Shown here: piece after piece, positions 24,054 through 58,207 of the stretch | Layout: each line of letters starts with the position of its first letter | Numbering within the stretch: the first letter of the stretch is position 1 | DNA from: an uncultured Spirochaetaceae bacterium | Lineage (GTDB): Bacteria; Spirochaetota; Spirochaetia; Sphaerochaetales; Sphaerochaetaceae | DNA length: 64,000 nucleotides | Direction: 5' to 3' | NCBI GenBank assembly: GCA_944389085.1 | Contig: CALXLB010000059.1 | Span: forward strand, 1-64,000 | The notes under the pieces: generated by a model | The model's database searches: none | What the model was told of the DNA's origin: nothing | What the model saw: the letters and a program-made list of their open reading frames with translations, nothing else | Position numbers and translations under genes: made by a program

Positions 24054-24687
24054 TTACGCTGTTCTCCTCCAGATGTTCACTGCGATGTAGGGAGGCAGGT
24101 TGTTATGAGCCGCACCGGAACCGGCAGAGCCGACAGTGATGGAATGAGTATGAGCACTTTTGTTTGACGTTGTAAGGCTCTGCGCGGCACTGCCTGTCGT
24201 GAATTCAACCTCAAAATAATCCCAGTAGTGCTGACCCATGTTTCCTATTGTATTGCTTGCAAATTGTGTCGCTGTACATCCTGAGCTTTCGTTAGGAGAA
24301 TTTTTTGAATCATCATCAACACCCACCATGCCGTTTATTGTAACGGTCTTCCTGCTTGATGGTACTGTTACTGTATGAGTATGGCTTCCAGCAGAATCAC
24401 TGGAACCTGAATGACTATGGCTCGGCATCTCATTCGTTGTCAGCTTGTGCGTAGCCTCTCCGCCTTTGGCTCCTACTGCATACCCGTCTCCTGCCGCCAT
24501 CAGGAACCTGCCTGACTCCAGCTTCTCCCATGTTCCGCCTCCAAGAATCTCAGATGGGTTCCTGGAATCAGATGTGAAGTAATAGCTTCCTACGGGATAT
24601 GATACAATACCCCCCCCCAACTGTTTCAGCCACGATTTTCTTTATAAGCTTCTCAAGGGCCTCTCTGCCCATTCCGCTTGATTGCAT
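24054..24687 (-). CDS. Tail-collar/receptor-binding protein 1, poly-G frameshifted (OFF)
   Basis: The collar part (about 185 aa, from IVSYPVGSYYF to ...IWRRTA) is out of frame with an N-terminal segment that begins at 24687 behind GGAGATAAGA (MQSSGMGREALEKLIKKIVA...). A G9 run (24610–24618) separates the two. With nine G the N-terminal frame runs into YCIISRRKLL; with eight or eleven it would join smoothly as V-GGG-IVSYP. The collar domain has the LGGGTWEKLESGRFLMA and EMPSHSHS motifs of phage tail-collar proteins and His-rich repeats. Paralogue of the two upstream genes; probable adsorption protein, currently OFF by phase variation. Confidence 0.8.
24610..24618 (-). repeat. Poly-G tract (G9 on coding strand), switch 1
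   Basis: Nine C on the plus strand, G9 in the sense of transcription, inside the collar gene between codons for its N-terminal helix and collar domain. In-frame joining requires 8 or 11 residues. Confidence 0.85.
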
Positions 24688-24699
24688 TCTTATCTCCTC

Positions 24700-25378
24700 T
24701 CATGCCGTCCTCTTCCACATATATACGGAAAGATACGGCTGCATAAGGCTCATAGCTGAGCCGCCGCCTTTGTTCCCGACTGAGACTGATACGTCTGATA
24801 AGGAATGGGAATGGGTGCCTGTGCTTTCTGTCTCGCCTGTCCAGCCATCAGAGGCATCGAATTTGATTCCAACAGGTCTTGAAGCATTAGAACCGGTTGC
24901 TGAATTCTGCGACTTATTAAATGATTTTGAGATGACACTCAACGCTCCGGATTGCTCCATCTCGGACGATAAGCCGGGGAAGATCTCAAAATTAATGTCG
25001 TTTCTTTGCATTGAACCAGTAATGTTCATAGTTCCTCTGCCATGCTTATGCGACCCCGCACTTCCCATGCTTCCAGAAAGAGAACCAGAATGGTTGTGAG
25101 AAGGCATCTCGTTCACTGTGATGCTGTGATTCTCGCTTCCGCCTGTCTCTCCTGCTGGATGAGATGAGCCTGCACCGATCAGTACCCTTCCATCATCAAG
25201 ACGCTCCCATGTCCCTCCGCCTAACACCTCAGCCGGATTGACCTCTATCACGCTCATGTAGATAGAGCCTATAGGGTAAGCATTAATACCCCCCCCCGTG
25301 CTGGGCGAAGGCATTCTCAATCTGCTTGTTCACCCATGCTTTCAGGGCTTCATTCCCGAATCCGCTAGATGATGGCAT
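24700..25378 (-). CDS. Tail-collar/receptor-binding protein 2, poly-G frameshifted (OFF)
   Basis: Start at 25378 behind GGAGGTGTAA, giving MPSSSGFGNEALKAWVNKQI... then H followed by G9 (25289–25297). In this frame Tyr and a TAA stop come straight after the run. The collar part continues in another frame as INAYPIGSIYMS... to ...YMWKRTA. Eight or eleven G would restore one protein of about 225 aa. Motifs VLGGGTWERLDDGRVLIGA and NEMPSHNHSG match the neighbouring paralogues. It overlaps the previous gene's stop by adjacency (TAA then ATG). Confidence 0.82.
25289..25297 (-). repeat. Poly-G tract (G9 on coding strand), switch 2
   Basis: Nine consecutive C on the plus strand at the same place in the gene as switch 1. 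The sequence after both runs starts TATT, so the required lengths for in-frame reading (8 or 11) are the same. Confidence 0.85.
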
Positions 25379-25933
25379 TTACACCTCCTCCGATGAAGAC
25401 AGATTGAGCGATGCTACCTGTGCCTCAGTTGCGTTTATCGTTTCTCTTGCTTCCTCTCTCTTCGTGAGGGTATCGGGATACTCCTCATTGAACTCCGCAA
25501 GAAGCTCCGGATTCTCCTTTATCTTCCTGTCGATGAATTTGAGGATTCTGTAGTCAGTTGAGCAAAGATATCCTTCAGCCTCGTTTATCTCATTCTGGAG
25601 CCTCTGAGCCTCAAGCTCCTCTTCTGTCGGTTCCGGCTCTGCTGGCTTAGGAGGATTCATCCTCGCATCCTGTGCCTCTTTCAGATCATGGGCCTTGGCA
25701 AGAAGGGCCTTTGCATAGTTCTCTGCATCAATATCCTCCGGAGTCATCCTCTTTCCGTTGAGCATGGCATGATCTGTGTCCCAGCATCTGTCAAGCTCGT
25801 TGATATAATCCGGGACAGGAGAGCCATAGTCTGTTTCAAAGTTCTCCAGAGAATCATCATAGACATCATTCCTTCCTTGGACGATGATTCCGTCACGTGA
25901 GCGTGAGATAAGCACGATTTCCTGATTCTGCAT
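25379..25933 (-). CDS. Tail-fibre assembly-like protein
   Basis: 184 aa from the ATG behind AAGGAGGAGAATT. It is acidic and helical. The C-terminal stretch (EAEGYLCSTDYRILKFIDRKI ... Y..TLTKREEARETIN) follows the pattern of phage tail-fibre assembly/DUF4376-type proteins, with TDY then an R..AR..IN ending. It lies between collar paralogues 3 and 2, where a fibre chaperone would be expected. Confidence 0.55.
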   Translation of the reverse strand: MQNQEIVLISRSRDGIIVQGRNDVYDDSLENFETDYGSPVPDYINELDRCWDTDHAMLNGKRMTPEDIDAENYAKALLAKAHDLKEAQDARMNPPKPAEPEPTEEELEAQRLQNEINEAEGYLCSTDYRILKFIDRKIKENPELLAEFNEEYPDTLTKREEARETINATEAQVASLNLSSSEEV

Positions 25934-25947
25934 AATTCTCCTCCTTG

Positions 25948-26640
25948 TTATGCTGTGCGTTTCCACATATAGACTGACAGGTATGGCTGCATGTTGTTAT
26001 GAGAGCCGCCAGAACCTGTATTTCCTACTGTTGTTGAGTGTGTATGGCTTCCGGCTGAGCCGCAGTCGGCATCTAGAGTGTGGCTGTGGGAGCCTGCAGA
26101 GGACGTGTTACCACTCCATTCCTGAGAGGCTTTAAACTCAACCATACCGCTAGCCCTATTGTTCCTACTGGCACCTGTCCATTCATCATTAGAGCCTTTG
26201 ACAATATTAAAAGCACCTCTACTATCAGAAAAGTCAGAATATGCAGCACAATCATAAACAAATCCACCTTCAATATCCATTGTCCCTCTGTTGTGGGTAT
26301 GAGCACCTGTATTATTAGTGTTACCTGAAATAGAGTGGCTATGTGACCCCGCTGATGTAATACTGACTGTATGCTTATGCGAAGGCATCTCAGAGGAAGT
26401 GAGAGTGTGCTTCTCCTCTCCTCCGGTCTCTCCTGCCGGGTGTGCGGAATTAGCCCCGATGAGGACTCGCCCATCATCCAGAGCTTCCCACGTACCGCCT
26501 AGGAATGTGGCAGGGGAAACGTTGTTCACTGACATATAGATTGAGCCTACCGGATACACCTTGCTCAATGCTGATTCTTTTATGGTCTTCTGGATAAGCT
26601 CTTTCAGCTCCTCTATTCCTATTCCGTTCTGTGCTGGCAT
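25948..26640 (-). CDS. Tail-collar/receptor-binding protein 3, continuous frame
   Basis: 230 aa. The N-terminal helix (MPAQNGIGIEELKELIQKT...) corresponds to the segments before the poly-G runs of the two paralogues, but here it joins the collar domain directly through SALSKVYPVGSIYMS, with no G run. It contains LGGTWEALDDGRVLIGANS, EMPSHKHTV and several AGSHTH-type repeats, ending YMWKRTA. It is the only collar gene of the three that is intact as sequenced. Confidence 0.8.
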   Translation of the reverse strand: MPAQNGIGIEELKELIQKTIKESALSKVYPVGSIYMSVNNVSPATFLGGTWEALDDGRVLIGANSAHPAGETGGEEKHTLTSSEMPSHKHTVSITSAGSHSHSISGNTNNTGAHTHNRGTMDIEGGFVYDCAAYSDFSDSRGAFNIVKGSNDEWTGASRNNRASGMVEFKASQEWSGNTSSAGSHSHTLDADCGSAGSHTHSTTVGNTGSGGSHNNMQPYLSVYMWKRTA

Positions 26641-26649
26641 AAATCCTCC

Positions 26650-27765
26650 TTATGAAGCCATCCTCACCGGCAGGATGCATATCGATATCCCATTGGCGGC
26701 AGGAGCCTCTGAGAACGTGACTTTGACGCTGTTGTTATCAATGGTGTCTACATTCCATTCAGGGATAGTCGCACCTGTTCCTGCCCATAGATTGACTGAC
26801 AGATTCTGCGTACCGAGATTGTGTGTGACGGTGAATTCCAGAGCTGAGCCATTGCCGATAGAGGCTACGTAACCGTAGAAGGTTTTTACTAGGGTCTCAA
26901 GCTGGCCTATCTTGATATTCAATTGCTGTACCACATCGATGTTCGCCGCAACCGGATCTGTTACTCCTTCAGGACGTGAATAGCCGATATTCCCGGTAAT
27001 CCTCGTCCTTCCAGCAGTCGTCTCTGAAGCAAGAGGCGAGTTAGCAGCGGCGGCAGCCTCCTGAGCGGACTGTTCGGCCGCGGCAGCTGAATCGGCGGCT
27101 GCTTTTACTTTTGCATCTATTGCTGCATTTGCCTGTGTTACCTTTGTATCAAAAGCGCTGCTTGCCTCCGCAATAGCTGCAGAAAGCGAATTGAATTTCT
27201 CCACAATCGCAGTAATAGCATCCCCTCTCGCTCCATCATTATCCGTTTGTCCTATCTGTGAAAGAGCAGAATTAAGAGCATTGGCTATAGCTTCCAGAGC
27301 TGCCTTCCTTACGCCCTCATTGTCATTCTGGCCTATTGTGGCAAGTGCATTCTGAAGAGCTTCTGCAATTTGGGATAGTGCATTTCCCCTGGCTCCTGAA
27401 GAATCATTTTCTCCGATAGCTATCAAAGCTGCGCTCATTGCAGAGTTTATCGCAGTGACAGCCTGCCCTCTGAGGCCTGTAGTGTCACTGTTTCCGATTG
27501 CTGCTAAAGCCTCTTCACAGATAGCTTTTGCAGCTTCTGCAGCTTCCTTTGCAGAAATTGCACCTGCTTCTGCATCAGTTGCTATCTTTCCAAGAGCATC
27601 CAATAAGGTCTGGATCTTGTACCATCCCTGACTGCCCTTCTCTGGCTTCCCATCTGCCCCTACTTTGAAAACAAAGAGAGAATGTTCTTTTGATGGTGTC
27701 TGGCTCTGAGCCATCGAGAAGGTGGAATCAATTACGACTTTGGATGTATCTATTGTATCTGGCAT
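26650..27765 (-). CDS. Alanine-rich tail-fibre shaft protein
   Basis: 371 aa from the ATG of MPDTIDTSK behind AAGGGGATAGAT. An N-terminal domain of about 70 residues probably docks to the tail tip. Then come four 27-residue repeats (about 87–194) with the motif IG..D..G.RG.A...I, an Ala-rich coiled coil (about 195–245), and a beta-rich tip (about 250–371). The layout is that of a trimeric side or central fibre. Confidence 0.75.
   Translation of the reverse strand: MPDTIDTSKVVIDSTFSMAQSQTPSKEHSLFVFKVGADGKPEKGSQGWYKIQTLLDALGKIATDAEAGAISAKEAAEAAKAICEEALAAIGNSDTTGLRGQAVTAINSAMSAALIAIGENDSSGARGNALSQIAEALQNALATIGQNDNEGVRKAALEAIANALNSALSQIGQTDNDGARGDAITAIVEKFNSLSAAIAEASSAFDTKVTQANAAIDAKVKAAADSAAAAEQSAQEAAAAANSPLASETTAGRTRITGNIGYSRPEGVTDPVAANIDVVQQLNIKIGQLETLVKTFYGYVASIGNGSALEFTVTHNLGTQNLSVNLWAGTGATIPEWNVDTIDNNSVKVTFSEAPAANGISICILPVRMAS
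27184..27507 (-). repeat. Four tandem 81-bp coding repeats in the fibre gene
   Basis: Four 27-residue units: LAAIGNSDTTGLRG..., LIAIGENDSSGARG..., LATIGQNDNEGVRK..., LSQIGQTDNDGARG.... They are diverged at DNA level but regular in length, so copy number could change by recombination. Confidence 0.75.
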
Positions 27766-27775
27766 ATCTATCCCC

Positions 27776-30700
27776 TTATGCATTGATTTTCAAAGTTCCA
27801 TTAGAGGTACGATAAACCTGAAATGGAAGAAGATCTGACCCATCTTCAGATAATGGAATAGCAAGTTTGAGAATCGAAGATGGATACACGGTAATCGTTA
27901 TAGAAGTCGGTGAACTCAAACTCACAGAAGGTCTGGGAAAAACGCCTCCCCAAGAATGAGTATTGTAATCAATCGAAAACTTACCTGAAGAAACTGTTGT
28001 TGGATTATAGCTTGATCCAGAATACTCTTTGAGTTTGATTCCAACCGATTGAAGCTGAATCGGGTTACGATTTGAATCACAGAATGTACATGCTCCTGAA
28101 GAAAATGACCCACTTTTTTCAAATTCATCTATCAAGAGGAACGCAATCGAAGAATATCCCGAAACTGTAACTGGATAATACTGTCCAGCAACTGCGCCAA
28201 GAGCTGCATCAAGGTCTTCAAGAAATGAAGCGTCGCTTACTGCTCCAGAAAAGACGTTAGAATTGTTTTTATCGCCAGGCTGGGTGGTAATAGATGAAGC
28301 CTCAAGAATTCCATAGAAAACAGAATCACCGGAGATAGTGATATCCTTCATTTCACCGCTTGTAGCAGTTATTTTTCCTGATATATCAACACCAGTCGCA
28401 TGAAGATATCCGTTCTGATCAATATAGAATCTAGACCGGCTCGGTCCCCGAATTTCTCCAGAAGAAGCATCATACATGAATCCACGAATGATAGCTGTCG
28501 GGTTGTCAATGTTGTTCACCTGACCAAAGAAAACATTGCCAGTTGCTGGATTTATCTGAAAGACACTTTTTTCTTTATACAAGCATCTGACTACAGGAGA
28601 AACTTTCTCTCCATTCTGATAATCAAAGACCTCAAAGCTGAAATCCGACCCATCTCCAACAAACAGGCTCCTAACTTTCAGATAGAATATAAAAGCCTTA
28701 TATACCGCCAGATTTGCCACATGCTGATTCGTAACGCTCTGGCTGTCTATCGTCCCCGGAGCCTGGAGCGCATCAAAGAGTGTCTCTTCTGCAATCTTCC
28801 AGGCAACGTTTACAGGAGTATTCCCATCAGAAAGAACCCATTCAGTTCCGTTCCAGTAGAACGGAGAGCGTCTGCCATCTGATTCTTCAACAAGCACGCA
28901 GTCTCCAATCGCAAGAGGGCCCTCAGTAGTCTTTTCAGGAAAAGGCTCATTCCACATGATGACACCCATGTACATAGTTTCAGCCTTCCCTTCCTGGATT
29001 CCTGAGATAACAAAATCCTTGGATGTATTGATATCCGCAATGGAGCAATGAACAGTTATTGCAGGAAGAGCTACCATCGGATTGATGATAATGACTATCT
29101 CACTATCATCTGCCTCATTAACTCTTACCCAAGAGAAGCATTTGTCAGGCTCTGGCACATCAGCTGTGACATCCCAGGAAACCGGAGCTGTAGTATTGAG
29201 TTTCTGACAACGGATATTGATTCGCTGGCATTTATCATTGTTCTCAGTACTCTCCTTTGTCACATTCCTGGATGTCAGCTTATATGTCTGCGGATTGACA
29301 ATGAGATTGAAATCCATTGCAGGAGAACCTGTAGTGCAGAAGTAATCCCATCGGTCTTCCTGATAGTTCCAGTATTTCACCCAGAGATAGTTAAGACCGA
29401 ATGGCTTATCAGGAACAAGTGTTTCCCAGCGTCCTGAATCCAGGACAAAAGCCATGACTTCACCATCGATTTCCCAGGTGATTGCCATGTCACCCCATGT
29501 AAGAATATCCACACCTTCATCTGGGGCGATAGTCGATGTTGCCGCCCACTGGAAGAATACGACAGGATTCCCTCCATCCTCAGCAGTCATCTTCATGACA
29601 ATCCATTCACCAGAAGAGGATGTTCTGAATCGCATCCAGATAACCTGCCCTTCTGTCGGAGCCGGCTGGGCATCCTGCCAGACCGTAGAGCTATCAGGGC
29701 TAGATCCAGAAGGAAGTGCCGCAAACTGCATCTGGACATCTATATCAAGGGATATATACTTTATCGTTTTCTCGACAAAATATGTTTCCCCGTCATATTC
29801 TGCTTCACAGCGCAGCTTATTCGCACCGTTAGCCAGCATGGATTTCGAAAACTGGATAATCAGCTCCGTAAATCCATTCATAATGACTCCATTAAGATAC
29901 CAGACAGGCTTTGCTCCGTATTTAGAGAATATAGATCCCCATGCCTCTGCTTTAAGCGGGGTATTGTCTTCCTCTTCTGGGAGAACATTATCATCTGATA
30001 CCTGCATCAGAAAGAAATCCGGTTCAGTCTGAGGTGCATCGACATCAGAATCCTTGTCTATCGAGACCTTGCTGAATGATGTCTTTCCATAGCCTTCTGC
30101 TTCGTATTTATATAAGCCATACTCATCTGACTGAGTTCGCTTTGTGATTCTGACTACTGTTTCTACCTTGGCTACATCCAGTTCCTGAAGAGTGATGACA
30201 GTACCAGGAAGAATCTTCTCAGTACTTTCAAACGAATAAGAGAAAGAACCGAATGAAGCACGATTCCGGATTGCATTCGCAAGAGAAAGAGCATAGGAAA
30301 GCGATTCAATATATTGCGCCGTATATTCCTCTGCATTATCTCCAGCAAACCCGACAGATTTGCTCTCAGCTTTCAGATAAGTTACATCTGCATAAACCTT
30401 GATTGTGAAGCTGACTCTGCCTCCAAGTCCTCCTGCCGCTCCGATATCATAAGAAATATGGCCTTTTGTATCATCGCATTCACCGAGAGTTACAGTTCCC
30501 CATGTGCCAGCAAGCCAAACTGATGTGTTCTTGCCTTCTACCCAGAAGTTCGAAAGCATTATCTCCTTTCCGGAATCATTATTTATCTGGGAGAGGTCCC
30601 ATATTATTTCCTTATTCGTAGCGGACTGCCATCCTGTCTGTACGTCTACAAAGGGAGATATACCCCAGAGCTCGTCTGTATACAGACAGATATTCTTCAA

Positions 30701-31504
30701 GGATTTGAATTTATCATATCTTACAATTGCACCGCTTTTTGTTTCATCCGTTGCCTCAGCTCTGTTTATCGTAAGAGAATTACGGAATACAGAAACCGTC
30801 TTTGTATTCGGCAGATCATGCTCTACATTCGATTCGGAACCTTCACTATCTGTAGATGGTTCAAGAATCAATCCGGACTGGAAGATATGCATCTTCCCTT
30901 CCTCATCAAAGCGATAATCGTAAACGTATTCATAAAGAAGCGTTGAAAGGATGTCATCAAGATATTTCCCTTCCTCAAGGGTAAAACGATGAAGAGTCAC
31001 GTTTATGGAAGGAGCCTCAGCTATAGTGATTCCACCAAGCTCACATATCTGATGGACTATTGAGTGCTCTGTATCCGAAGGATTGCAGACTGAATATCCA
31101 TCCCAGTTCTTCTCATATATGACCCCTTCTTCCTCATCAGATTCACTATCTACAGCAGTGAATACCTTCTTGTGCAGCTTCTCTGTATAATCAAGGATCT
31201 CAAGCTGCAGATTGCCAAGATACTGCTGAGAAGCCGTAATGGAGGCATACGGCCTGATTACGCCCGTGAAAACGGTTGTCCCAGCATCATCTTCAAGTCT
31301 GGCTTCAAGAAGCTCTGTTGCATACATGATGTAGAAAAGAACTTCTGCGCCACGTGTGGAAATACTGCATGATGATGTTGCATGCTTGCCATCAGCACCT
31401 GCAGTGAGAACAAGAGAAAAGCCATCACGGAGAACAGGATAAGTCCTTTCTCCTGCGGCTGTATTGATAATCAGACGATAAGGAGTATCAACTGCAACAG
31501 CCAT
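27776..31504 (-). CDS. Large phage tail-tip / host-specificity protein
   Basis: 1242 aa from the ATG of MAVAVDTPYRLI, whose start overlaps the tape-measure stop. The N-terminal 450 residues look like a baseplate hub-type domain (repeated beta segments, LDYTEKLHKKVF). The C-terminal half is beta-rich with a region (about 1000–1100) similar in style to central-tail-fibre insertions (GDSVFYGILEASSITT). Position directly after the tape measure and size suggest the gpJ-like receptor-contact complex. Exact family not recognised. Confidence 0.7.
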   Translation of the reverse strand: MAVAVDTPYRLIINTAAGERTYPVLRDGFSLVLTAGADGKHATSSCSISTRGAEVLFYIMYATELLEARLEDDAGTTVFTGVIRPYASITASQQYLGNLQLEILDYTEKLHKKVFTAVDSESDEEEGVIYEKNWDGYSVCNPSDTEHSIVHQICELGGITIAEAPSINVTLHRFTLEEGKYLDDILSTLLYEYVYDYRFDEEGKMHIFQSGLILEPSTDSEGSESNVEHDLPNTKTVSVFRNSLTINRAEATDETKSGAIVRYDKFKSLKNICLYTDELWGISPFVDVQTGWQSATNKEIIWDLSQINNDSGKEIMLSNFWVEGKNTSVWLAGTWGTVTLGECDDTKGHISYDIGAAGGLGGRVSFTIKVYADVTYLKAESKSVGFAGDNAEEYTAQYIESLSYALSLANAIRNRASFGSFSYSFESTEKILPGTVITLQELDVAKVETVVRITKRTQSDEYGLYKYEAEGYGKTSFSKVSIDKDSDVDAPQTEPDFFLMQVSDDNVLPEEEDNTPLKAEAWGSIFSKYGAKPVWYLNGVIMNGFTELIIQFSKSMLANGANKLRCEAEYDGETYFVEKTIKYISLDIDVQMQFAALPSGSSPDSSTVWQDAQPAPTEGQVIWMRFRTSSSGEWIVMKMTAEDGGNPVVFFQWAATSTIAPDEGVDILTWGDMAITWEIDGEVMAFVLDSGRWETLVPDKPFGLNYLWVKYWNYQEDRWDYFCTTGSPAMDFNLIVNPQTYKLTSRNVTKESTENNDKCQRINIRCQKLNTTAPVSWDVTADVPEPDKCFSWVRVNEADDSEIVIIINPMVALPAITVHCSIADINTSKDFVISGIQEGKAETMYMGVIMWNEPFPEKTTEGPLAIGDCVLVEESDGRRSPFYWNGTEWVLSDGNTPVNVAWKIAEETLFDALQAPGTIDSQSVTNQHVANLAVYKAFIFYLKVRSLFVGDGSDFSFEVFDYQNGEKVSPVVRCLYKEKSVFQINPATGNVFFGQVNNIDNPTAIIRGFMYDASSGEIRGPSRSRFYIDQNGYLHATGVDISGKITATSGEMKDITISGDSVFYGILEASSITTQPGDKNNSNVFSGAVSDASFLEDLDAALGAVAGQYYPVTVSGYSSIAFLLIDEFEKSGSFSSGACTFCDSNRNPIQLQSVGIKLKEYSGSSYNPTTVSSGKFSIDYNTHSWGGVFPRPSVSLSSPTSITITVYPSSILKLAIPLSEDGSDLLPFQVYRTSNGTLKINA

Positions 31505-33801
31505 TATGCATACCTCCATTTCGGCAGAGCACCTGTTCGCTGTGCTCTTTCTATTCCTCTGAAAATCTCTTCAGCAAGATTCTCTTTTGAATAGACCTCT
31601 CCTATAGATATGTTTATGTTGATTACCCCGCTCTCTCCGCTAAGTCCGAAACGATTCATATTCCCTTCATTCAGAGGAAGGATTGCTTCCGGCGAACCGC
31701 CTTCACCGATAAGAGCACGAGTCGGAGATGTGACAATACCGCCAGCCGCCATAGGCGTATACTGCTGAGATGAGATTGTCGCCATCTCTGCAGCTGTTGC
31801 AGCCGCTGAAATGCCTGTAAGAACTCCAGCTAATGCAGGATTTGAGCCATATTTAGCCCAGATATCCGTAATGGATAGAGCGGCATTTATAGCAGCTTCA
31901 GCAAAGGCATTCACCTGCCTTATCCTGAAAGCCGTCTCGGCATCCCGATTGGCTTTCTCTTCTTCTGCCTGTTTTTCTGAAGCAGCCTGTTCTTCAGCCT
32001 TAGCTCTCTCATCATCCAGCTGATTCATAGAATCAATGTAATCTTCATAGGAAATATTCCCTGAGATAAGCTGTGCATTGAGAGATTCAGCCTGCCTCTC
32101 CTGATCTCTGTCAAGCTTCTCGAAATACTCATCCCATTTCTTTTCGATCTCTTCCAGAGAAGCAGCAGAGGATTCCGCCATGTTATCAAAGACAGAGGCT
32201 ATCTGATCTGATACAGAGATAATACCCCTGAGCATGTCAGGAAATGTTTCCTCCGCGAAATTATCTTTCCAGTCTTCAGCGGCATCTCCGGCTTCTTCAA
32301 GTGCCTCTTTCTGGTCATAGAGCGCTGCATTGATTTCCTCAAGCTGCTTCTTCGTATTGTCATCCAGCCCTGGCATAGCCATGAACTGCTGAGAGGCTCT
32401 TATCGCATCATCGATTGCTGATATCTGACGAGTATCAGAAAGGGAACCATATTTTGAGAGGAATTTTGAAAGCGGAGATTCTCTCTGAGGTTCTGGAGAG
32501 TCTTCTTCTGGTTGTTCTATTACAAAGCCTTCATCAGACCAAGTACGATACAAATCATTTAAAGCTGAAGCTGGGTTTATCCCCAATGATAACTTATCAA
32601 AGTTTGGAATATTTATCAGAGAAGAGAAATCCTGAACAGGAGAGATAAGCAAAGAAGATGATACAGCAGCATTGGCAGAACTATTTACAGCTTTGGCTTT
32701 CTCTATCCTTTCTTGTTTTTCCTGTTCTTCCTGTTGGCGTAAATCTTCAACCCACCAGCCTACCTCTGAACCTTCGGCTCCTCTTCGTTCAAGCTCTGCT
32801 GTTATATTTTTAACAGCACGCTGATAATTTGCAATCTCTTTATCATCTGCAAACCAATTATCTTCCCATTTCTCTAACCAATTATTTGCGCTATCCCTAG
32901 CTTGTCTTAATGCTTCACTGGAATATTCTGAAAGGTTACTGTCATATCCTTTTGCAGCTTCAAGGGCATTGGCTCCATTAATCCAATCAGAGATAGCACA
33001 AAGCTGGCTGTAGATAGTATTCAATGCTGGAGAAATTGCGTTGAGAAGTCCTTCCCCCAGCCCCTCCTTGATATCAGTCCAGACATCTCCTATCTTCTGA
33101 AGCTTCCCTGTATCTGTATCAGCAATGGCTCTTGCCATATCGCCATATGTAGCGGCTATCTCATCCAGGATTATCTGCTGGGCTGAGTATATTCCATTCT
33201 GCTCCTGAACAGCCTTTACATTCTCAGCCTGCTTCTCTGTAAGCTGAATACCAGCTTCCTTAAGGCTTTCTATCTCTCCTGCAGGATCTGCAAGAGCCTG
33301 TGCAAGACGTTCTGCCGCCTGCGTAGCATCCTCTCCGGTTGCAGCAGCCATATTGAGAACGGCTCTCGTAGCTTCCGGCATGACATCACGGCCTATTTTC
33401 CTGGTAGCTGCAAGGATGCCTTCAACCGCAATAATCTCCTGATCTGAATATGCCGTTACCTTCTGAAGGGATTCAGCAAGGTCAAGAAGCTCAGATGCCG
33501 ACATACCGACTGCATTCTGGGTAGCTTTAAGAGTAGTCTGCAGACGTATTTCAGCCTGTTCCTGAGCCGCATAAGCCGAGACACATGCAGAGGCTGCTTC
33601 TGCAACCTTCTGAACAACAGATGAGACAGCTGTGAAAATGCTGATTGCACCTTGAACTCCTGCAGAAAGTCTCAGGAATTTCGAAGAAGCTGTATCAGTC
33701 GCCTTCTGCAGCTGGTCAAGCTTCTGATTCACAGAATTTATGCCATTTACTGCATTCTGGGCATTAGCCGCAATCTGAATAGTAATCTCGTTTTTAGCCA
33801 T
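31504..33801 (-). CDS. Phage tail tape-measure protein
   Basis: 765 aa from the ATG of MAKNEITIQIAANAQN. The first 300 residues have the tape-measure hallmarks (LQKVTAYSDQEIIAVEGILAATRK, AAATGEDATQAAERLAQAL). Long coiled-coil stretches follow (about 540–660), and the C-terminus has AAGGIVTSPTRALIGEGGSPEAILPL, a common tape-measure ending. It sets tail length; about 765 residues predict a tail near 110 nm by the usual 1.5 Å per residue rule (inference). Confidence 0.9.
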   Translation of the reverse strand: MAKNEITIQIAANAQNAVNGINSVNQKLDQLQKATDTASSKFLRLSAGVQGAISIFTAVSSVVQKVAEAASACVSAYAAQEQAEIRLQTTLKATQNAVGMSASELLDLAESLQKVTAYSDQEIIAVEGILAATRKIGRDVMPEATRAVLNMAAATGEDATQAAERLAQALADPAGEIESLKEAGIQLTEKQAENVKAVQEQNGIYSAQQIILDEIAATYGDMARAIADTDTGKLQKIGDVWTDIKEGLGEGLLNAISPALNTIYSQLCAISDWINGANALEAAKGYDSNLSEYSSEALRQARDSANNWLEKWEDNWFADDKEIANYQRAVKNITAELERRGAEGSEVGWWVEDLRQQEEQEKQERIEKAKAVNSSANAAVSSSLLISPVQDFSSLINIPNFDKLSLGINPASALNDLYRTWSDEGFVIEQPEEDSPEPQRESPLSKFLSKYGSLSDTRQISAIDDAIRASQQFMAMPGLDDNTKKQLEEINAALYDQKEALEEAGDAAEDWKDNFAEETFPDMLRGIISVSDQIASVFDNMAESSAASLEEIEKKWDEYFEKLDRDQERQAESLNAQLISGNISYEDYIDSMNQLDDERAKAEEQAASEKQAEEEKANRDAETAFRIRQVNAFAEAAINAALSITDIWAKYGSNPALAGVLTGISAAATAAEMATISSQQYTPMAAGGIVTSPTRALIGEGGSPEAILPLNEGNMNRFGLSGESGVININISIGEVYSKENLAEEIFRGIERAQRTGALPKWRYA

Positions 33802-33827
33802 TCCAGTCCACAATGGCTAGAAGAACA

Positions 33828-36573: not shown

Positions 36574-37713
36574 TCAGGCATTTGCCTTGAGCTTCAGAAC
36601 AGCAAAAGCATCTTTGAGTGCAACATCACCATCGATTCTTTCCTGACCTCTTACACCAACCTGACCGGTTGCTGCATAAAGTTCATTCAGCGTTCTCATC
36701 TCGATGCTCAAGCGATCACAGATATGGTAATAGCTGAAATCACCGACAATCATTGCAACAGCTCCTGCAGCAAGCGCCGGGCACTCATCCGATACAACTA
36801 CAGGGATTCCCATAATCTGCTTAATCTCATCCTGCTGTGGGAACATGTATGTATCGCCATCCTTGAACTCGTGGATGATATCGAGAAGCGTCTGAGAGCA
36901 GACAATATGAGCAGAACCTCTATAAGCCTTAAGCTTCTGGATTGTATTTTTGATTTCTGTCCATGTAACTGTAGTCTGAGAAGCTGCTGTTACAGTATTT
37001 GCTGAAGCAACATTAGTTGCGATTCCGCGGATTTTCGTCTTTGAAGAAGATGTTCCTGTACCAAAGAGAATCTCCTTGTCTTCTTTTTTTGCAAATGCCT
37101 TGGCGAATTTGTCCTCAATATACCCCATGACATCTACTCCAAGGTCAGCGATATACTCTTCAGAGACCTTGGTCAGCGCACCAAGCTTAAGAGCCTGAAG
37201 ACCGATGGGTGTGATAGAGGGCGTCGTCTCACCGAATGTACCAGCTTCATCAATGTAATCCACGACTACATCATCGCCTTCTACCATCACCGTATATTCT
37301 CCGCTCGCCTGATGGACTGTACAGAGACCACGGATGCGTGCAATCTTCTCCTTCTTCATCTGGATATTCTGAGCACACTCTCTCGGAAGAAGACCAGAAA
37401 ATGTAGTTCCTTTCGCAACGGCCTCAACCAGCTTAAGACCAAACTGAGCTCTCTCAGACAGCGCTTCAGGATTCTTTGTCTTATCCTTCTGGATCCCTTC
37501 AGGGACTCCACCTGCATCAAGCGTCTCCTTCTCTTCCAAGGCTTCGATGTTATCAAGCTCCTCTTGAAGGTCATCAGCCTGCTTCTTCAGCATCTCATAT
37601 TTCTTGACATCCTCATCAGATGATGTTTCCAGCATTCTCTCGAATGTCTCTTCAACTTTCTTCTCGATGGCTTCAAGCCTCTTCTGGATCTGCTCCTTCT
37701 TCTTTACGAACAT
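36574..37713 (-). CDS. Major capsid protein, HK97 fold, with N-terminal scaffold domain
   Basis: 379 aa. Residues 1 to about 85 form a charged coiled coil (delta/scaffold domain, removed by the protease in this family). The capsid domain follows, with landmark regions LKLGALTKVSEEYIADLGVD, ILFGTGTSS, MGIPVVVSDECPALA and a C-terminal FAVLKLKA. AAGGAG precedes the ATG. Self-assembles into the procapsid. Confidence 0.92.
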   Translation of the reverse strand: MFVKKKEQIQKRLEAIEKKVEETFERMLETSSDEDVKKYEMLKKQADDLQEELDNIEALEEKETLDAGGVPEGIQKDKTKNPEALSERAQFGLKLVEAVAKGTTFSGLLPRECAQNIQMKKEKIARIRGLCTVHQASGEYTVMVEGDDVVVDYIDEAGTFGETTPSITPIGLQALKLGALTKVSEEYIADLGVDVMGYIEDKFAKAFAKKEDKEILFGTGTSSSKTKIRGIATNVASANTVTAASQTTVTWTEIKNTIQKLKAYRGSAHIVCSQTLLDIIHEFKDGDTYMFPQQDEIKQIMGIPVVVSDECPALAAGAVAMIVGDFSYYHICDRLSIEMRTLNELYAATGQVGVRGQERIDGDVALKDAFAVLKLKANA

Positions 37714-38346: not shown

Positions 38347-40314
38347 TCATTCACCTGGAGCCACAGAGCATCTGCAATGTGAATGGAATGGCGGATGCCT
38401 GTAGTTCTTATCGATATGGCGGACCCCGCCTTCTCCTGTATCCACATCAGAACCTTTCTGAAGGACATAGCCTTCAACAGAAGCCACCTTGCCATCGATC
38501 GCCCCGCAGAAACTGCAGCTGTTTGAAGCAGCGACTATGTGATAGACAGTCACGCCAAGCTGGGAGAAAAGAAAAAGCGAGAAAGCATTGCTAGATCTGT
38601 TGGTTTCCTCTTCACTCTGCTCTATCGGATAATCCTGCTCAAGCCTGTCCATATCATCATCGAAGTGCTCGGTTCCCACAGAACCTTCAGCTGTATGTCC
38701 TGCCGTTCCGGCAACACGCAATGCCATATCGTCTGCATAAGAGCCGGCATATGCATCAAGCTTCGAATCATTGACATTGCTATCATTCCCTATTTCTCCC
38801 TGGATTACCGGGACCATCTTCTCAAGCACATCAAGGTAAATCGTCTTGTACTGAGGAGCCATATCCTTTGCATGTCGTTCCAGCCATGACCTGAAGTCAG
38901 CAATCACACTATCTGCAGGGGCGCCTGTAGCAATAAGCCGCCGCAATTCTTCAATGGAAACCTTCAGCTGTTCCCTGATAAGCTTCTCAAGTTTCGCTCT
39001 ATTGCTCTTCGCAGGCTTCTGAGCCTCTTCAACGAAAAGAAGATCATGAGCCCGCTTCTCAGCTTTCATCCTCTTTCTGGATTCCTCTATGCTCTCTTTC
39101 CCGCTATCCAGCCTGTAGCCTTCTGATGCAGGGATATTCCATAACGAGCCCATGCCATTGGACCCACCAGCATACTTCCCTGCCACGACATCAGAGAGAT
39201 TGCCGTAATTCATCGGGAAGAAATGCACGTCACCATCCGGGCCGATGCCTGGCATCTCCTCCTTCTGGCGAACCTCATTGATGGAATACCAGCCATCCAT
39301 GATAGCGTTATGATAGAAAGCGGCTCTTGTAGCATGGTCTCCGCGGAGGAGCCCTTCCAGAGAGAACTTGATGTATTCACGCTCCCGGCAGAGTGCATTA
39401 TTGAGTGCAGCTTCCCACGCTGCAATCCTTGGCTGAAGACAGTAGATGACCATCTGAAGGCCCTGCTGCTCTGAGTTATTGTATGTTCCTGTCGTGTCTC
39501 CAATAAAGAAAGGAGGCACATTGAAGCGTCTTGCTACTTCAGTCGCAGACCACTTCTGAGCTTCGCTGAGTTTGGCGATATCAGCATTCTGTACCTGGAT
39601 AGGCGTTATTTTCACACGCTCATCCATGACATAATTACGGAAGCCTCGCGCAGCATCGAACATCTTCTTCAGCTCATCTCTCTTTTCTTTGTCAAAGCTT
39701 GCTGGCACACTGATGTTATTTCCAACAATGGACGCTCCATCATAATATTCCGCCTGCATGTCCTTGCATTTCTGAGCTAGTTCTATATCATTCCTGGCAT
39801 ATCGCATCGGGTCCAGAACAGAACCGGCTCCGTATCCAACAGGCGTATTCCGCAGAAGCAGAATATCAGAGGCGCTGAACGTCTCTCCCGTAAGAGCATA
39901 GGTATACTTGAGAATATCGCCATCAGCAGAAGCCACAATGGAAGAAGGAGATACAGGCCAGAGCGCAATCGGAAATCCTGCTCTGGAACGCCTTATGATA
40001 GCAACAGCCTCACCCCGCATCTCGAAGTTGAAACCCATGACAAAACGGAAATCATACGATGTCATGTATGCATTCGGTTTTTTCAGGAGCTCTGAAAGAA
40101 TGGTCTTCTCTTCCGTGGATCTATTGCCATTGCCATCAATCTTATAGGCATGCCAAGGAAGAGTCGCATAAAGCCTGGAAAGATTCACTACACAAGACCA
40201 GAGAGCCGAATTGTAAAGATCATTCGGCGGATTGGTTATTCTTCTTCCTGAGCCATATGCTATGGTTGATGCTATCGATTCTGTCTTCTTCTTGAAGAAA
40301 TCTATGAGGCCCAT
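38347..40314 (-). CDS. Portal protein fused to a Mu gpF-like C-terminal domain
   Basis: 655 aa. The HK97-type portal covers about 1–400 (PWHAYKIDGNG, VARRFNVPPFFIGD..., the QGLQMVIYCLQPRIAAWE helix). After a linker, the C-terminus ends in a MuF-type minor-head motif: CSFCGAIDGKV then HPPFHSHCRCSV (about 595–650). In many phages these are two neighbouring genes. The portal forms the DNA channel; the MuF part may be ejected or bind the head interior. Confidence 0.85.
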   Translation of the reverse strand: MGLIDFFKKKTESIASTIAYGSGRRITNPPNDLYNSALWSCVVNLSRLYATLPWHAYKIDGNGNRSTEEKTILSELLKKPNAYMTSYDFRFVMGFNFEMRGEAVAIIRRSRAGFPIALWPVSPSSIVASADGDILKYTYALTGETFSASDILLLRNTPVGYGAGSVLDPMRYARNDIELAQKCKDMQAEYYDGASIVGNNISVPASFDKEKRDELKKMFDAARGFRNYVMDERVKITPIQVQNADIAKLSEAQKWSATEVARRFNVPPFFIGDTTGTYNNSEQQGLQMVIYCLQPRIAAWEAALNNALCREREYIKFSLEGLLRGDHATRAAFYHNAIMDGWYSINEVRQKEEMPGIGPDGDVHFFPMNYGNLSDVVAGKYAGGSNGMGSLWNIPASEGYRLDSGKESIEESRKRMKAEKRAHDLLFVEEAQKPAKSNRAKLEKLIREQLKVSIEELRRLIATGAPADSVIADFRSWLERHAKDMAPQYKTIYLDVLEKMVPVIQGEIGNDSNVNDSKLDAYAGSYADDMALRVAGTAGHTAEGSVGTEHFDDDMDRLEQDYPIEQSEEETNRSSNAFSLFLFSQLGVTVYHIVAASNSCSFCGAIDGKVASVEGYVLQKGSDVDTGEGGVRHIDKNYRHPPFHSHCRCSVAPGE

Positions 40315-40319
40315 TCATA

Positions 40320-42026
40320 TCACCATGCTGTAAGCATGTCCTCCACACTGCCTGAAAAGGCAGCCATATCATTGGTTTTCGCATTTGATAAAGCCATCAC
40401 AGAGGTGATGACCCCGTCTATTCTGGCTTCTGTCCTTTTCTTAGGTTTCACAAGCTTCACGTTCCCTGTCGTATCCTGGAAAGTTTCTGCACAGCTCATC
40501 ATCCAGTCCACAACCTCATTCCCGTTATCAGTAACATTGCCTTCCAGATATGCGCGCTCAAAATCCATGATAGTCGGGCTCATAGTCTTCATGCCCTGAG
40601 AGAATTCATAAGCCACATCCGTGAACCATGGAGGCATGAGCTTCACAAGCTCCTCAATCTTCCAGCGGTCTGCTGCTATGTAATGGATCTGATAGCGGCT
40701 GTAGGCTTCCGTGAGATAATCCCTGACATAATCATAATCAATGACATCACCAGGTGTCGCAGTTACCCATCCAAGTTCTATCCATTTCCTAAGCGGAATA
40801 CGGCACTGTCTGGAGATAGCAGTCACCATGCTTTCAGCAATCCAGAAATGAGTAATCTGGACATGCCGGCCGTCATCCATCGGGAAATCCAGAGTGAAGG
40901 CTGTGAAATCGGACACAGCAGAAAGGTCAAGGCCACCATAAGCCATGCGGCCTGCAAGGCTCTCCTCATCGACAGTCCATCTGCATCGCTCCATCCAGAT
41001 AGGCATATTTGCCCACTTATGGAGACTGTGACACCACATATTCAGGTTCTTTGTCTTGAAATCAATGATGTCATCTTCCGATGCCCTGGCATATTCATAG
41101 TGGCTCTCGAATGTCTCAGGGTCCACGGAAACACCCCAATTTGGATTTGCTTTAGGCCAGACCGATGGATCATCTACGCTGTCCTTCTCATCAAGCTCAT
41201 AGATAGAGATGAAATAACGCGGTATCTCCAGCTCTCCGCTAAGAACACGCTTGCACTTCTTGTATTCCTCATGGCACACCCCGCCAAGCGATACGCCAGC
41301 GGTAGTTATCCTTATCAGCATGGCCTGCTGCTCGGAAATGTTGCCTGAAGCTATAGAGTTCAAGAGCCCATTATCCTTATGCTGATGGTACTCATCTATG
41401 ACAGCTGCATACGAAAGCTTGCCATCCTTCGGTTCTGCAGCTATGGCTGTTATCTCACTGTCTTTAAACTTGATCTGCTTGTTGTTCTTGCTATCGGAGA
41501 CTATGACCTTATCGCCCTTCCGGAGTTTCAGGGAATCAGCGGCTCTCCTGAATGTCTCTCCTGCCTGGTCAAGTGATGTGGCGCCGATATAGCAGCTAAC
41601 TCCATCGACTTCCCCGAACGCGAGATAGTCAAGTAGAGCTCCCACATAGGTGCTCTTGCCATTCTTCCTAGCAACCTCTATGAAGGCATCTGTGAATCTC
41701 CGGACCTTTGGATTGTCTCTCTTCACCCAGCCGAAGAGGACTATGGTGTCCCATGCCTGCCAGTCGGAAAGCATCATAGGCTGGCCTCTTTTGCCGCCCT
41801 TCGGGAAAGCCAGATTGATAGCAATCCATAACAGAGGTCTCAGTCCTGCTTCCATATCAAAGCGGAATCCAGGGACACCATTCTTCAGGTCAGCTTCCTG
41901 CCTCTGTACCTTAGCCTTCTCAGCCTTGGAAGCTGCACGGGTCCCATACAGAACCGCAAAGCGATAATGCTGATACGCTTCTGAATAATGATCCGTGAGC
42001 CTTGTAACGATTTCACTTCTTGTCAT
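40320..42026 (-). CDS. Terminase large subunit
   Basis: 568 aa from the ATG of MTRSEIVTRL. The ATPase domain has the Walker A-like VARKNGKST and Walker B AAVIDEYHQH. The nuclease domain follows with MAYGGLDLSAVSDFTAF (first acidic ligand), YIAADRW and later Asp residues. It belongs to the Terminase_1/HK97-like group. It drives DNA packaging and cuts concatemers. It overlaps the small subunit gene by 14 bp. Confidence 0.93.
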   Translation of the reverse strand: MTRSEIVTRLTDHYSEAYQHYRFAVLYGTRAASKAEKAKVQRQEADLKNGVPGFRFDMEAGLRPLLWIAINLAFPKGGKRGQPMMLSDWQAWDTIVLFGWVKRDNPKVRRFTDAFIEVARKNGKSTYVGALLDYLAFGEVDGVSCYIGATSLDQAGETFRRAADSLKLRKGDKVIVSDSKNNKQIKFKDSEITAIAAEPKDGKLSYAAVIDEYHQHKDNGLLNSIASGNISEQQAMLIRITTAGVSLGGVCHEEYKKCKRVLSGELEIPRYFISIYELDEKDSVDDPSVWPKANPNWGVSVDPETFESHYEYARASEDDIIDFKTKNLNMWCHSLHKWANMPIWMERCRWTVDEESLAGRMAYGGLDLSAVSDFTAFTLDFPMDDGRHVQITHFWIAESMVTAISRQCRIPLRKWIELGWVTATPGDVIDYDYVRDYLTEAYSRYQIHYIAADRWKIEELVKLMPPWFTDVAYEFSQGMKTMSPTIMDFERAYLEGNVTDNGNEVVDWMMSCAETFQDTTGNVKLVKPKKRTEARIDGVITSVMALSNAKTNDMAAFSGSVEDMLTAW

Positions 42027-42363
42027 CGAACAGGCCTCCGAATGTAGGGTCAGCTTCCTGACTTCCGGCTTCCTTAGAAATAGAAAGCGTCTTCCTTGCT
42101 TTGTAAGTGACACCAAACGCGGACATGATTGAGATATAAGAAGCCAGCGCAGACTTCCTGTCAGAAAGTTTCTCTGTCCTGTCCCTGAAGATTGAGTACA
42201 GTTCGCATGCCGCTTCAAGTACAGGAACATCTACAACACAGACTACCTCGTCCTTGATGAGAAGCGGAACAATGTATTTGAAATGTTCTTTCGCGATTTC
42301 TGAGAGCCATGAAGCAGGTTCTGGAGTTCTCTGAAGGACCGCGTTCTCTATCGCCCTAGGCAT
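42013..42363 (-). CDS. Terminase small subunit (P27 family)
   Basis: 116 aa from the ATG of MPRAIENAVLQRTPEPASW, which overlaps the HNH stop. The helical core WLSEIAKEHFKYIVPLLIKDEV...DVPVLEAACELYSIF matches the P27-type small subunit that recognises packaging DNA. It is followed directly by the large subunit. Confidence 0.82.
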   Translation of the reverse strand: MPRAIENAVLQRTPEPASWLSEIAKEHFKYIVPLLIKDEVVCVVDVPVLEAACELYSIFRDRTEKLSDRKSALASYISIMSAFGVTYKARKTLSISKEAGSQEADPTFGGLFDDKK

Positions 42364-54565: not shown

Positions 54566-55237
54566 ATGAAAGATGAATATAACGAAAATAAAGTAGCAAT
54601 AAGATTACGGAATGCTTTGGCACACAGCAACATGACACAATCGGAACTTGCTGAGAAAACAGGTATCAATTTTAGTACTATTAGTTCCTATGTATCAGGC
54701 AGATTTGAGCCTAAAAGAACACCACTAATGAAACTTGCAAAAGCTCTTGATGTTTCTCCTACCTGGCTTGCTGGTTTTGATGTTCCAATGGACGCAGAGA
54801 CTCCTTACTACAATGCTGAAACAGGCATCCTCACAATTCCTTTCATTACTCAGAAGATCTCTGCAGGGCTTGGTGAGGAAGAGCTCCCAGAGGACTGTCT
54901 TGAGGTTAGAAGCATAGATATCCTGGCATCAATGGCGAAAGGCATCAGCAAGAAGATTCTCACTGCAGCCGAAGTCAAAGGTGATTCAATGATAGAAGCC
55001 AACATTTATCCTGGCGATATCGTAATCTTTGCCAGAGGACGGATTGAAGGCGATGGAATCTACGTTCTGGCTCTCGGTGGAGACATCCTTGTAAAGCGTC
55101 TTCAATTCGATGCCCTTTCAAATGAGCTTGAGATCATAAGCATGAACAAAAACTACAAGCCAAGGACAGTAGCAGCTGATGCGGATGGCTTGAGAATATT
55201 AGGTAAGGTTGTGGGCTGGTTCCATAACGAGATATAA
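54566..55237 (+). CDS. CI-type repressor with S24 (LexA-like) peptidase domain
   Basis: 223 aa. XRE HTH at about 10–65 (MTQSELAEKTGINFSTISSY). Cleavage site Ala100-Gly101 in KISAGLGE, catalytic Ser141 in KGDSMIE and Lys177 in DILVKRLQ. It should keep the lysogen silent and self-cleave on RecA activation, so induction by DNA damage is predicted. It starts a rightward operon with the membrane protein downstream (12-bp gap). Confidence 0.92.
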   Translation: MKDEYNENKVAIRLRNALAHSNMTQSELAEKTGINFSTISSYVSGRFEPKRTPLMKLAKALDVSPTWLAGFDVPMDAETPYYNAETGILTIPFITQKISAGLGEEELPEDCLEVRSIDILASMAKGISKKILTAAEVKGDSMIEANIYPGDIVIFARGRIEGDGIYVLALGGDILVKRLQFDALSNELEIISMNKNYKPRTVAADADGLRILGKVVGWFHNEI

Positions 55238-56905: not shown

Positions 56906-58207
56906 ATGGCAGAAGTAACAGCCAGAAAACGTGGCTCAAAGTGGGAATACCGCTTTGAGATGGCGTCCATAGATGGAAAGAGAAAACAGTACTCAAAATC
57001 TGGATTTGCCACAAAAAAAGAAGCTATGAAAGCTGGCACAGAGGCATTTGCAAAGTACAATAAAACTGGTTTGTCTTTCGAGCCATCAGATATCAGTGTG
57101 GCTGATTATCTAGATTATTTCTTTGAGCAATATTGCAAGACCAACCTCAAATATAACTCACAGGTTTCATACAGATATCATATAACAGCTCATTTAAAAC
57201 CAGCATTTGGAGCTTACAAGCTGAAAAACCTGCAGCCATCTGTCATAACATCCTGGCTCAATTCTCTAGTTCTGAAAGGATATTCTTTCAACACTATAAA
57301 GCACGCCAAAAACTGTCTTTCTAAAGCCCTGAAATATGCTGTATATCCATGCCAGTTTATAGAACACAGTCCTATGGTTTATGTTGAGATGCCCAAAACT
57401 ACTAAAAAGGCAAAAGAGACAAAACCTGTCAGCTATGAGGATTTCAACAGAATACTTGGACGGTTTCCAGAAGGGCATCGTTATCACATTGCATTGATGC
57501 TTGGCTGGAATCTAGGGGTAAGGATAGCCGAGGCTATGGCTATTACATGGGATGATATAAATTTCTTTTCAAATTCAGTAGCACTGGCTAATCAAGCGAT
57601 AAACAGGAATTATGGGAATGATGTACTGAAAGGGAAAACAAAGAAATGGAATTTCGTTAAGCCAGGAGTCATAGCTGAATGGGCACTGCAGCCTCTCAAA
57701 ACAGAATCATCAGTCAGGACAATCCCCTTCGGCCCCACTCTAAGGGATTTTCTTCTCAGAGAACGAAAGAGACAGGAAGATAACGAGAGAGAATATGGCG
57801 AGTTCTTCTTTGTCCAATATCTAGAAGAAGCACTGGATGAAAAGAACAATCATTTTATGATGATAAGACAATGCCAGAAAAAAGACTTGCCGCAGGATGC
57901 GGAAAGAATTTTCCTTATCAACATAGCTGGAAATGGTTGCTGGACTACACCTTCATCTATACGGCATTGCATGTACCTTATACACCATCGCCTGGACATT
58001 CCTGATTTCGACTTTCATACTCTCCGTCATACCCATGCAACCAATATGATTGAGAACAATGCAGAACTGAAGGCAGTCCAACTTCGAATGGGACATAAGG
58101 ATATCCAGACAACCTATCAGATCTATGTTCATTGCACCAAGGCAATGGAAGAACAAAACATTGAAATCTTGGAACAGATAAATGAAAAGCTTGCCCACGA
58201 GAAATAA
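56906..58207 (+). CDS. int: Tyrosine integrase
   Basis: 433 aa behind TAAGGAGGAAG. An AP2-like arm-binding N-terminus (about 8–45), SAM-like core-binding domain (about 60–160), and catalytic domain with R206 (GVRIAEA), H371xxR374 (HTLRH), H397 (MGHKD) and nucleophile Y407 in QIYVH. It lies 90 bp from attR, as expected for a nagB-targeting integrase. The last codons form an inverted repeat with the first CGTGGGCAA downstream. Confidence 0.95.

Follow-up and report, generated by a model that had tools for sequence, protein, structure and literature searches.

When a phage gene is split by a run of nine guanines that breaks its reading frame, is it damaged, misassembled or only switched off? Two neighbouring tail-collar genes of a spirochaete prophage raise this question. 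They are located on the minus strand at 24054..24687 (gene 1) and 24700..25378 (gene 2) of a 64-kb stretch of DNA, which was analysed as a whole and is called the window below. It is one contig of a 2.27-Mb draft genome (G000; 112 contigs, 86.7% complete). With a probability of roughly 85%, we consider genes 1 and 2 to be phase-variable tail-tip genes, probably encoding receptor-binding proteins (RBPs), of a temperate spirochaete phage, which would be switched by slippage on their G runs.

Each gene is composed of a start segment, a tract of nine G (G9) and a Gp10_C collar, and each is OFF in the assembly. Gene 1 starts with the ATG at 24687, continues with MQSSGMGREALEKLIKKIVAETV and reaches its G9 at 24610..24618 (minus strand); gene 2 starts with the ATG at 25378, continues with MPSSSGFGNEALKAWVNKQIENAFAQH and reaches its G9 at 25289..25297 (minus strand). 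The start segments of 23-27 codons run in frame 0 as far as the G run, and the collar frames begin one base past it: IVSYPVGSYYF... with 184 codons and a stop at 24054 in gene 1, and INAYPIGSIYMS... with 195 codons and a stop at 24700 in gene 2. The two parts are joined only if n+1 is a multiple of three, i.e. for n = 8 or 11, and n = 9 is out of frame. A first-pass annotation had described two adjacent collar genes with nine G each and these joining lengths, and the sequence confirms it. Translation at n = 9 gives short peptides that end in ...HGGGY-stop (gene 1) and ...VGGGYCIISRRKLLLHI-stop (gene 2). In the in-frame register, the sequence also encodes a Gly-Gly-Gly hinge, and both tracts lie within this hinge. 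Shine-Dalgarno-like motifs could be read directly in front of both genes on the minus strand: GAGGAG at 24694..24699 for gene 1, directly next to the gene 2 stop (24700-24702), and AGGAGG at 25384..25389 for gene 2, whose ATG is abutted by the stop (25379-25381) of the gene before it. As the genes are so tightly packed, with stops abutting the next ATG or Shine-Dalgarno motif, gene 1 could be expressed less when gene 2 is OFF. The earlier description of both genes as OFF is correct for the assembled consensus; it does not hold as a statement about the population, since it gives the state of one consensus only.

The collar of gene 1 matches the Pfam family Gp10_C (PF21939) with an E-value of 1.9e-20 and that of gene 2 with 2e-25, and both also match several PHROG tail families. 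With 74.7, 90.7 and 93.7 bits at a curated cut-off of 27, the three collars of the window are members of Gp10_C, and the domain family suggests that they bind receptors. In profile comparisons, the start of the collar matched the C-terminal domain of the T4 baseplate protein gp10 (2fkk, 5hx2; E 3.6e-7), and most of the tip matched the long tail fibre in 8kec (E 3.4e-5). In contrast to the genes described here, T4 gp10 and the 8kec fibre have no poly-G hinge and no known switching. The AlphaFold model of the intact protein of a relative had a pLDDT of 45.9, which was too poor for a fold search, and contained a weak helix at residues 7-22 and a linker or loop at 23-33. The placement of the hinge is thus based on the sequence together with this weakly predicted helix and linker.

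Integrase, repressor, terminase, portal, head and tail genes are found together in the window and identify a temperate prophage of ~36 kb, from about 21.6 to 58.2 kb, which also carries replication genes. Its temperate character is marked by the integrase (56906..58207, plus strand; phrog_1, E 1.1e-67) and by a CI-like repressor with HTH and S24 peptidase (54566..55237, plus strand). The minus strand encodes the terminase large subunit (40320..42230; phrog_9, E 2.1e-124), the portal protein (38347..40314; PF04860, E 9.2e-68), the major head protein (36574..37713; phrog_10, E 2.3e-64), the tape measure protein (31504..33813; PF06791 and PHROGs), a probable tail-tip protein of 1247 aa (27776..31519; weak PHROG match to "tail protein and host specificity") and a probable tail protein (26650..27783; weak PHROG matches, one of them to a minor tail protein). 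No DNA similarity between the window and known phages was found.

The array continues from the tail-tip genes to a constant collar gene, a gene for a ~184-aa protein, gene 2, gene 1 and small genes, which may be the lysis region. A third paralogue had been said to be intact without any G run, and it was indeed found as a 230-aa ORF free of such a tract, with a helix-like N-terminus, upstream of genes 1 and 2 (25948..26640, minus strand; PF21939, E 2.6e-26). The ~184-aa protein gene between the constant and the switchable collars (25379..25933, minus strand; an alternative upstream GTG would start the ORF at 25966) had no match in Pfam or PHROG, and an IMG/VR scan with this neighbour yielded no further relatives of the cassette. 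From its place and size, the protein is possibly a tail-fibre assembly chaperone, by analogy to gp27 of phage V22 (PMC7289586).

The two G9 tracts are the only runs of G or C longer than six in the window. Thirteen of its C runs are 5 long, one is 6 long and two are 9 long, with nothing at 7-8, and its G runs have a maximum length of 5. Markov models of order 2-4 predict 0.01-0.07 G/C runs of at least nine in 64 kb, whereas two were seen, at homologous positions. A dinucleotide shuffle with an 8-mer pattern and overlapping hits, which is a weaker test, gave an expectation of 1.0 against four seen, a number that was reached in 3 of 100 shuffles. The tracts have a property of contingency loci: they are repeats in a coding region near the 5' end, and their length decides whether the frame is joined or broken.

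The collar cassette was found as a strong match in just two further genomes, G064 and G044, out of 139 of the family; both belong to the same genus. G064 has a tract-free constant paralogue, a G10 gene that is ON and a G9 gene that is ON; G044 has a tract-free constant paralogue and a G10 gene that is ON; the cassette of the window has the constant gene and two G9 genes that are OFF. In both G064 and G044, the tract-free paralogue comes first, and an orthologue of the ~184-aa gene is found at the same place. Since G044 also shares the downstream genes with the window, its prophage is of the same kind. The in-frame joints of the relatives read ...SQISM-GGG-YAYPVGSIYMS, ...VGTAVQ-GGG-LSAYPVGAIYMS and ...NQISM-GGG-YAYPVGSIYMS, and every joined product has GGG where the helix meets the collar. 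The orthologous tract therefore occurs in both states, ON three times (G064, G044) and OFF twice (window), across related species and not within one strain; with five tracts in three genomes, these numbers say little about rates. The first-pass annotation had named a uniform nine G, with no other length in any relative, as evidence against switching; the search of related prophages yielded G10 tracts and an in-frame G9. A programmed frameshift or transcriptional-slippage gene, with the frame broken in all members, was considered as a class and rejected, as the tracts of the relatives are in frame. The tip of the G9 gene of G064 matches that of the G10 gene of G044 (L105, 3551-5489; L106, 3684-4358), and the sequences suggest that tip segments are exchanged between tract paralogues of different species' prophages by recombination among tail-tip cassettes.

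The same layout is present in unrelated phages. L170 (IMG/VR, IMGVR_UViG_2513237344_000001) carries five tandem tail-tip genes with tracts of G9, G8, G9, G7 and G9, of which only G7 is in frame (one ON, four OFF). The starts of these genes are related (QPIS..NLKA), e.g. MPISDDQPVSIGNLKAIFAKDS or MSINSDQPISAGNLKAALDGL, the tips differ after the tract, and the first tip is a collar. An IMG/VR scan with one L170 tip gave no further relatives of that cassette. In L129 (IMG/VR, IMGVR_UViG_2936222045_000001), MANVINF-G8-MNPYPVG is in frame and MPTIIRC-G9-IPVSDYES is out of frame, and a middle paralogue, MSTIIKT-GGA GGC GGA-VPVQDYEA, has the same three glycines without a run. These paralogues indicate that the hinge is a feature of the protein that is written as a mutable tract in some copies only. 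When 145 collar-bearing or related loci were scanned, G8 or longer near the collar was found in only four (L001, L005, L165 and L170), so most collar phages are without such tracts; L129 was found by pattern search and is outside this count. The pattern of poly-G followed by YPVG had 36 matches in IMG/VR, and only L129 is a tail collar, while the others look like chance. In collar-relative phages of the gut bacteria Blautia, Faecalimonas, Dorea and Faecalibacterium, no G run of at least 7 was found near the collar. L165 has a G9 shortly upstream of a ribosome site at 2830 and 3976, once directly before a collar gene, and this is perhaps a promoter-type or transcriptional switch of the same protein family.

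An IMG/VR search for a start followed by poly-G also gave other candidates; many of the matches listed are chance hits, and the search gives no rate or prevalence. Among the matches listed, a small phage protein family, MNHLEFIEKNVRE(I/Q)LIKQGFSSSVA-polyG-WQAIDLYKRMSQASKKG..., occurs on at least eight IMG/VR contigs (L254, L260, L288, L308, L317, L321, L346 and L350), with G8 in frame and G9 or G10 out of frame in different phages; it is probably another phage contingency gene, judging from these frames. Likewise among the matches listed are probable phage DNA methyltransferase genes with coding G8-G11, some in frame and some not (L181, L182, L330, L338, L359, L398 and L401 in IMG/VR; assigned by eye from motifs), and phase-variable phage methylation is possible for these predicted genes. 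Two further IMG/VR loci among the matches listed, L366 (near 11784 and 12238) and L335 (near 3022 and 3744), have tandem paralogues with poly-G past the start segment; in each pair, the frame is joined in one gene and broken in the other.

Genes 1 and 2 could be decaying pseudogenes of a defective prophage, with the frameshifts as their first lesions, and it would fit this that one prophage has both genes broken next to an intact constant copy. However, no further stop or frameshift was found in the 184 and 195 codons past the tract. Third codon positions are near saturation between most paralogues, with 29-40 differences per 57 codons, and positions 1 and 2 differ much less: gene 2 has 11/9/35 differences at codon positions 1/2/3 to the G10 gene of G064, and gene 1 has 16/16/39 to its G044 counterpart. 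As the frames have stayed open and the third-position bias is kept, the OFF genes are not decaying. The terminase, portal, head, tape measure, repressor and integrase genes are also all long open frames, and the relatives hold intact tract copies, so that we give pseudogenes hardly any credence. Only 15.5% of the glycine codons in the window are GGG, and yet GGG is used for all glycine codons that lie wholly within the five tracts. Because pure G has persisted despite near-saturated third positions and low GGG usage, we conclude that the run is maintained as DNA. That the tract exceeds the length expected by chance and persists where synonymous codons would be free to vary is a further mark of a contingency locus.

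It could also be argued that both G9 runs are errors of assembly or sequencing and that the true genes are in frame, given that the genome is a draft and that the two runs miss the joining length by an identical single base. On the other hand, there is no excess of homopolymers elsewhere in the window, and a tract of the same purity at the same place is found again in the independent assemblies G064, G044, L170 and L129. We thus judge such errors to be very unlikely, and due to this recurrence, a wrong length would only overturn the OFF call and leave the contingency locus standing. A different proposal accepts the tracts as real: some full-length protein would be made at any genomic length, through slippage of transcription or frameshifting of the ribosome at the G run, and the tract would serve as a dosage device instead of a heritable switch. 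Long G runs can cause slippage of RNA polymerase, and all five coding tracts have been kept as pure G, which is compatible with such a device. Still, the three tracts of the relatives are exactly in frame, which would be needless for a mechanism that is indifferent to frame, and both states occur among the relatives. We therefore consider this proposal unlikely, but such leakage could accompany genomic switching.

Slipped-strand mispairing alters the length of poly-G tracts, and phase variation by this process is the best explanation for the tracts of genes 1 and 2. In this model, collar proteins 1 and 2 would be located in the virion, where the short N-terminal helix probably attaches them to the tail. 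It would be followed by the hinge of three glycines, nearly all of it in GGG codons, and by the collar domain, whose tip is variable and rich in histidine. Slippage during replication would shift the length of the G run within the population; one register would give the whole protein, and the others would stop soon past the run. The tract-free upstream paralogue would always be made, so that particles remain functional while the extra tips vary. If the two switches worked independently, as the first-pass annotation proposed, up to four adsorption states would result.

Poly-G tracts are also found outside the prophage and are common, at differing lengths, in the genus, which favours switching. 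G000 has about 33 G runs of at least 8. Of 48 genomes of the genus, 32 carry promoter-like tracts of the form TTGACA-N(5-14)-G9 to G12-TA, often several in each; the reversed pattern, used as a control, was found in none of the 48. These tracts look like a genus-wide system of promoter phase variation. In G000 they are located on contigs C15, C37, C51, C54, C66, C90 and C101 (L086, L088, L090, L092, L093, L096 and L098). Some are found upstream of lipoprotein-like genes (MKKSILIGVLAALMLFAFTAC...), and one repeat of G000 comes both with G9 and with G11. Coding tracts past start segments or signal peptides are found in several genomes of the genus, both in and out of frame. In G000, a G9 at the start of a lipoprotein-like ORF (C69 near 55018; L094, 5119) is followed by 755 codons in frame, and beyond another G9 (C71 near 25589; L095), a lipoprotein-like ORF of >362 codons does not share the frame of the start segment before it; from their sequences, both are probable cellular translational switches. 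As G000 encodes MutS and MutL, lower slippage rates are to be expected, which counts against switching.

Variation of the host-binding tip is known from other phages: the G segment of phage Mu and the C segment of P1 switch tail fibres by an invertase, and BPP-1 uses a diversity-generating retroelement. In contrast to such inversion or templated mutagenesis by dedicated enzymes, the tracts of the window need no dedicated enzyme and would turn each gene on or off. The closest parallel is found in Campylobacter phages. According to PMC8713573 and a 2025 review (PMC11868660), Fletchervirus phages have up to four RBPs, two of which are phase-variable (Sorensen et al. 2021, Cell Rep 35:109214, as cited there, with a title that gives poly-G tracts as the means), and their switching is described there as experimentally shown, whereas in the window prophage we infer it. 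We examined the sequence of NCTC12673 directly and found only two G runs of at least 7, in two genes that look like RBP genes: a G11 after MINYGNSNIKEIIDGSVKILTESKTYTVG, in frame, and a G9 after MLEYGSSSIKDIIDNSTKLLTSNLEWTVGT, out of frame and annotated as two ORFs. These are presumably the published RBP genes. As in Fletchervirus, the window prophage has several RBP or tail-tip genes, at least one of them constant and two switchable, and as in NCTC12673, the coding poly-G follows a short N-terminal segment (~27-30 residues), so that the protein is cut off ahead of the binding domain when the length is out of frame. Unlike the T4-like Fletchervirus phages of Campylobacter, the phage of the window is a temperate spirochaete phage with Gp10_C collars around a presumed chaperone gene. 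Homology to Fletchervirus RBPs was not found when the intact collar protein of a relative was compared with gp116 of NCTC12673 (BLASTP, E 55). In a spirochaete, poly-G tracts of 7-11 are known from the tpr and tp0126 promoters of Treponema pallidum, where the length varies within isolates (PMC7864442). However, these tracts act on the -35/-10 spacing or near the transcription start and concern cellular outer-membrane proteins, whereas those of the window act on the reading frame of phage proteins.

The first-pass annotation had proposed two poly-G switches next to one constant protein, and this proposal is supported by the two cassettes of the same genus, with all tracts in frame, by coding selection in the OFF genes, by the independent phages and by the Campylobacter precedent. 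Poly-G switching of phage receptor-binding proteins as such is not new and has been reported for Fletchervirus; what is new is its setting in a temperate spirochaete phage and in unrelated proteins, and its recurrence across phages. Whether the triple-glycine hinge encoded by poly-G is a recurrent, convergently evolved module, with arrays of switchable tips beside a constant one, appears to us an evenly balanced question. If so, its hosts would span spirochaetes, Campylobacter and the hosts of L170 and L129, and one phage population would hold many adsorption states without a dedicated diversification enzyme. The combination of anchor, poly-G and tip provides a simple sequence signature by which such switches could be counted. 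Predictions of phage host range from one consensus genome would then mislead, as genes that look broken may need only a single slippage event to be expressed. For the prophage studied here, it is likely that it varies which bacterial surfaces its particles grip, and the design of a short anchor, a GGG hinge that is also the mutable tract, an exchangeable tip and a constant paralogue extends to further phages, including one with an array of five genes.
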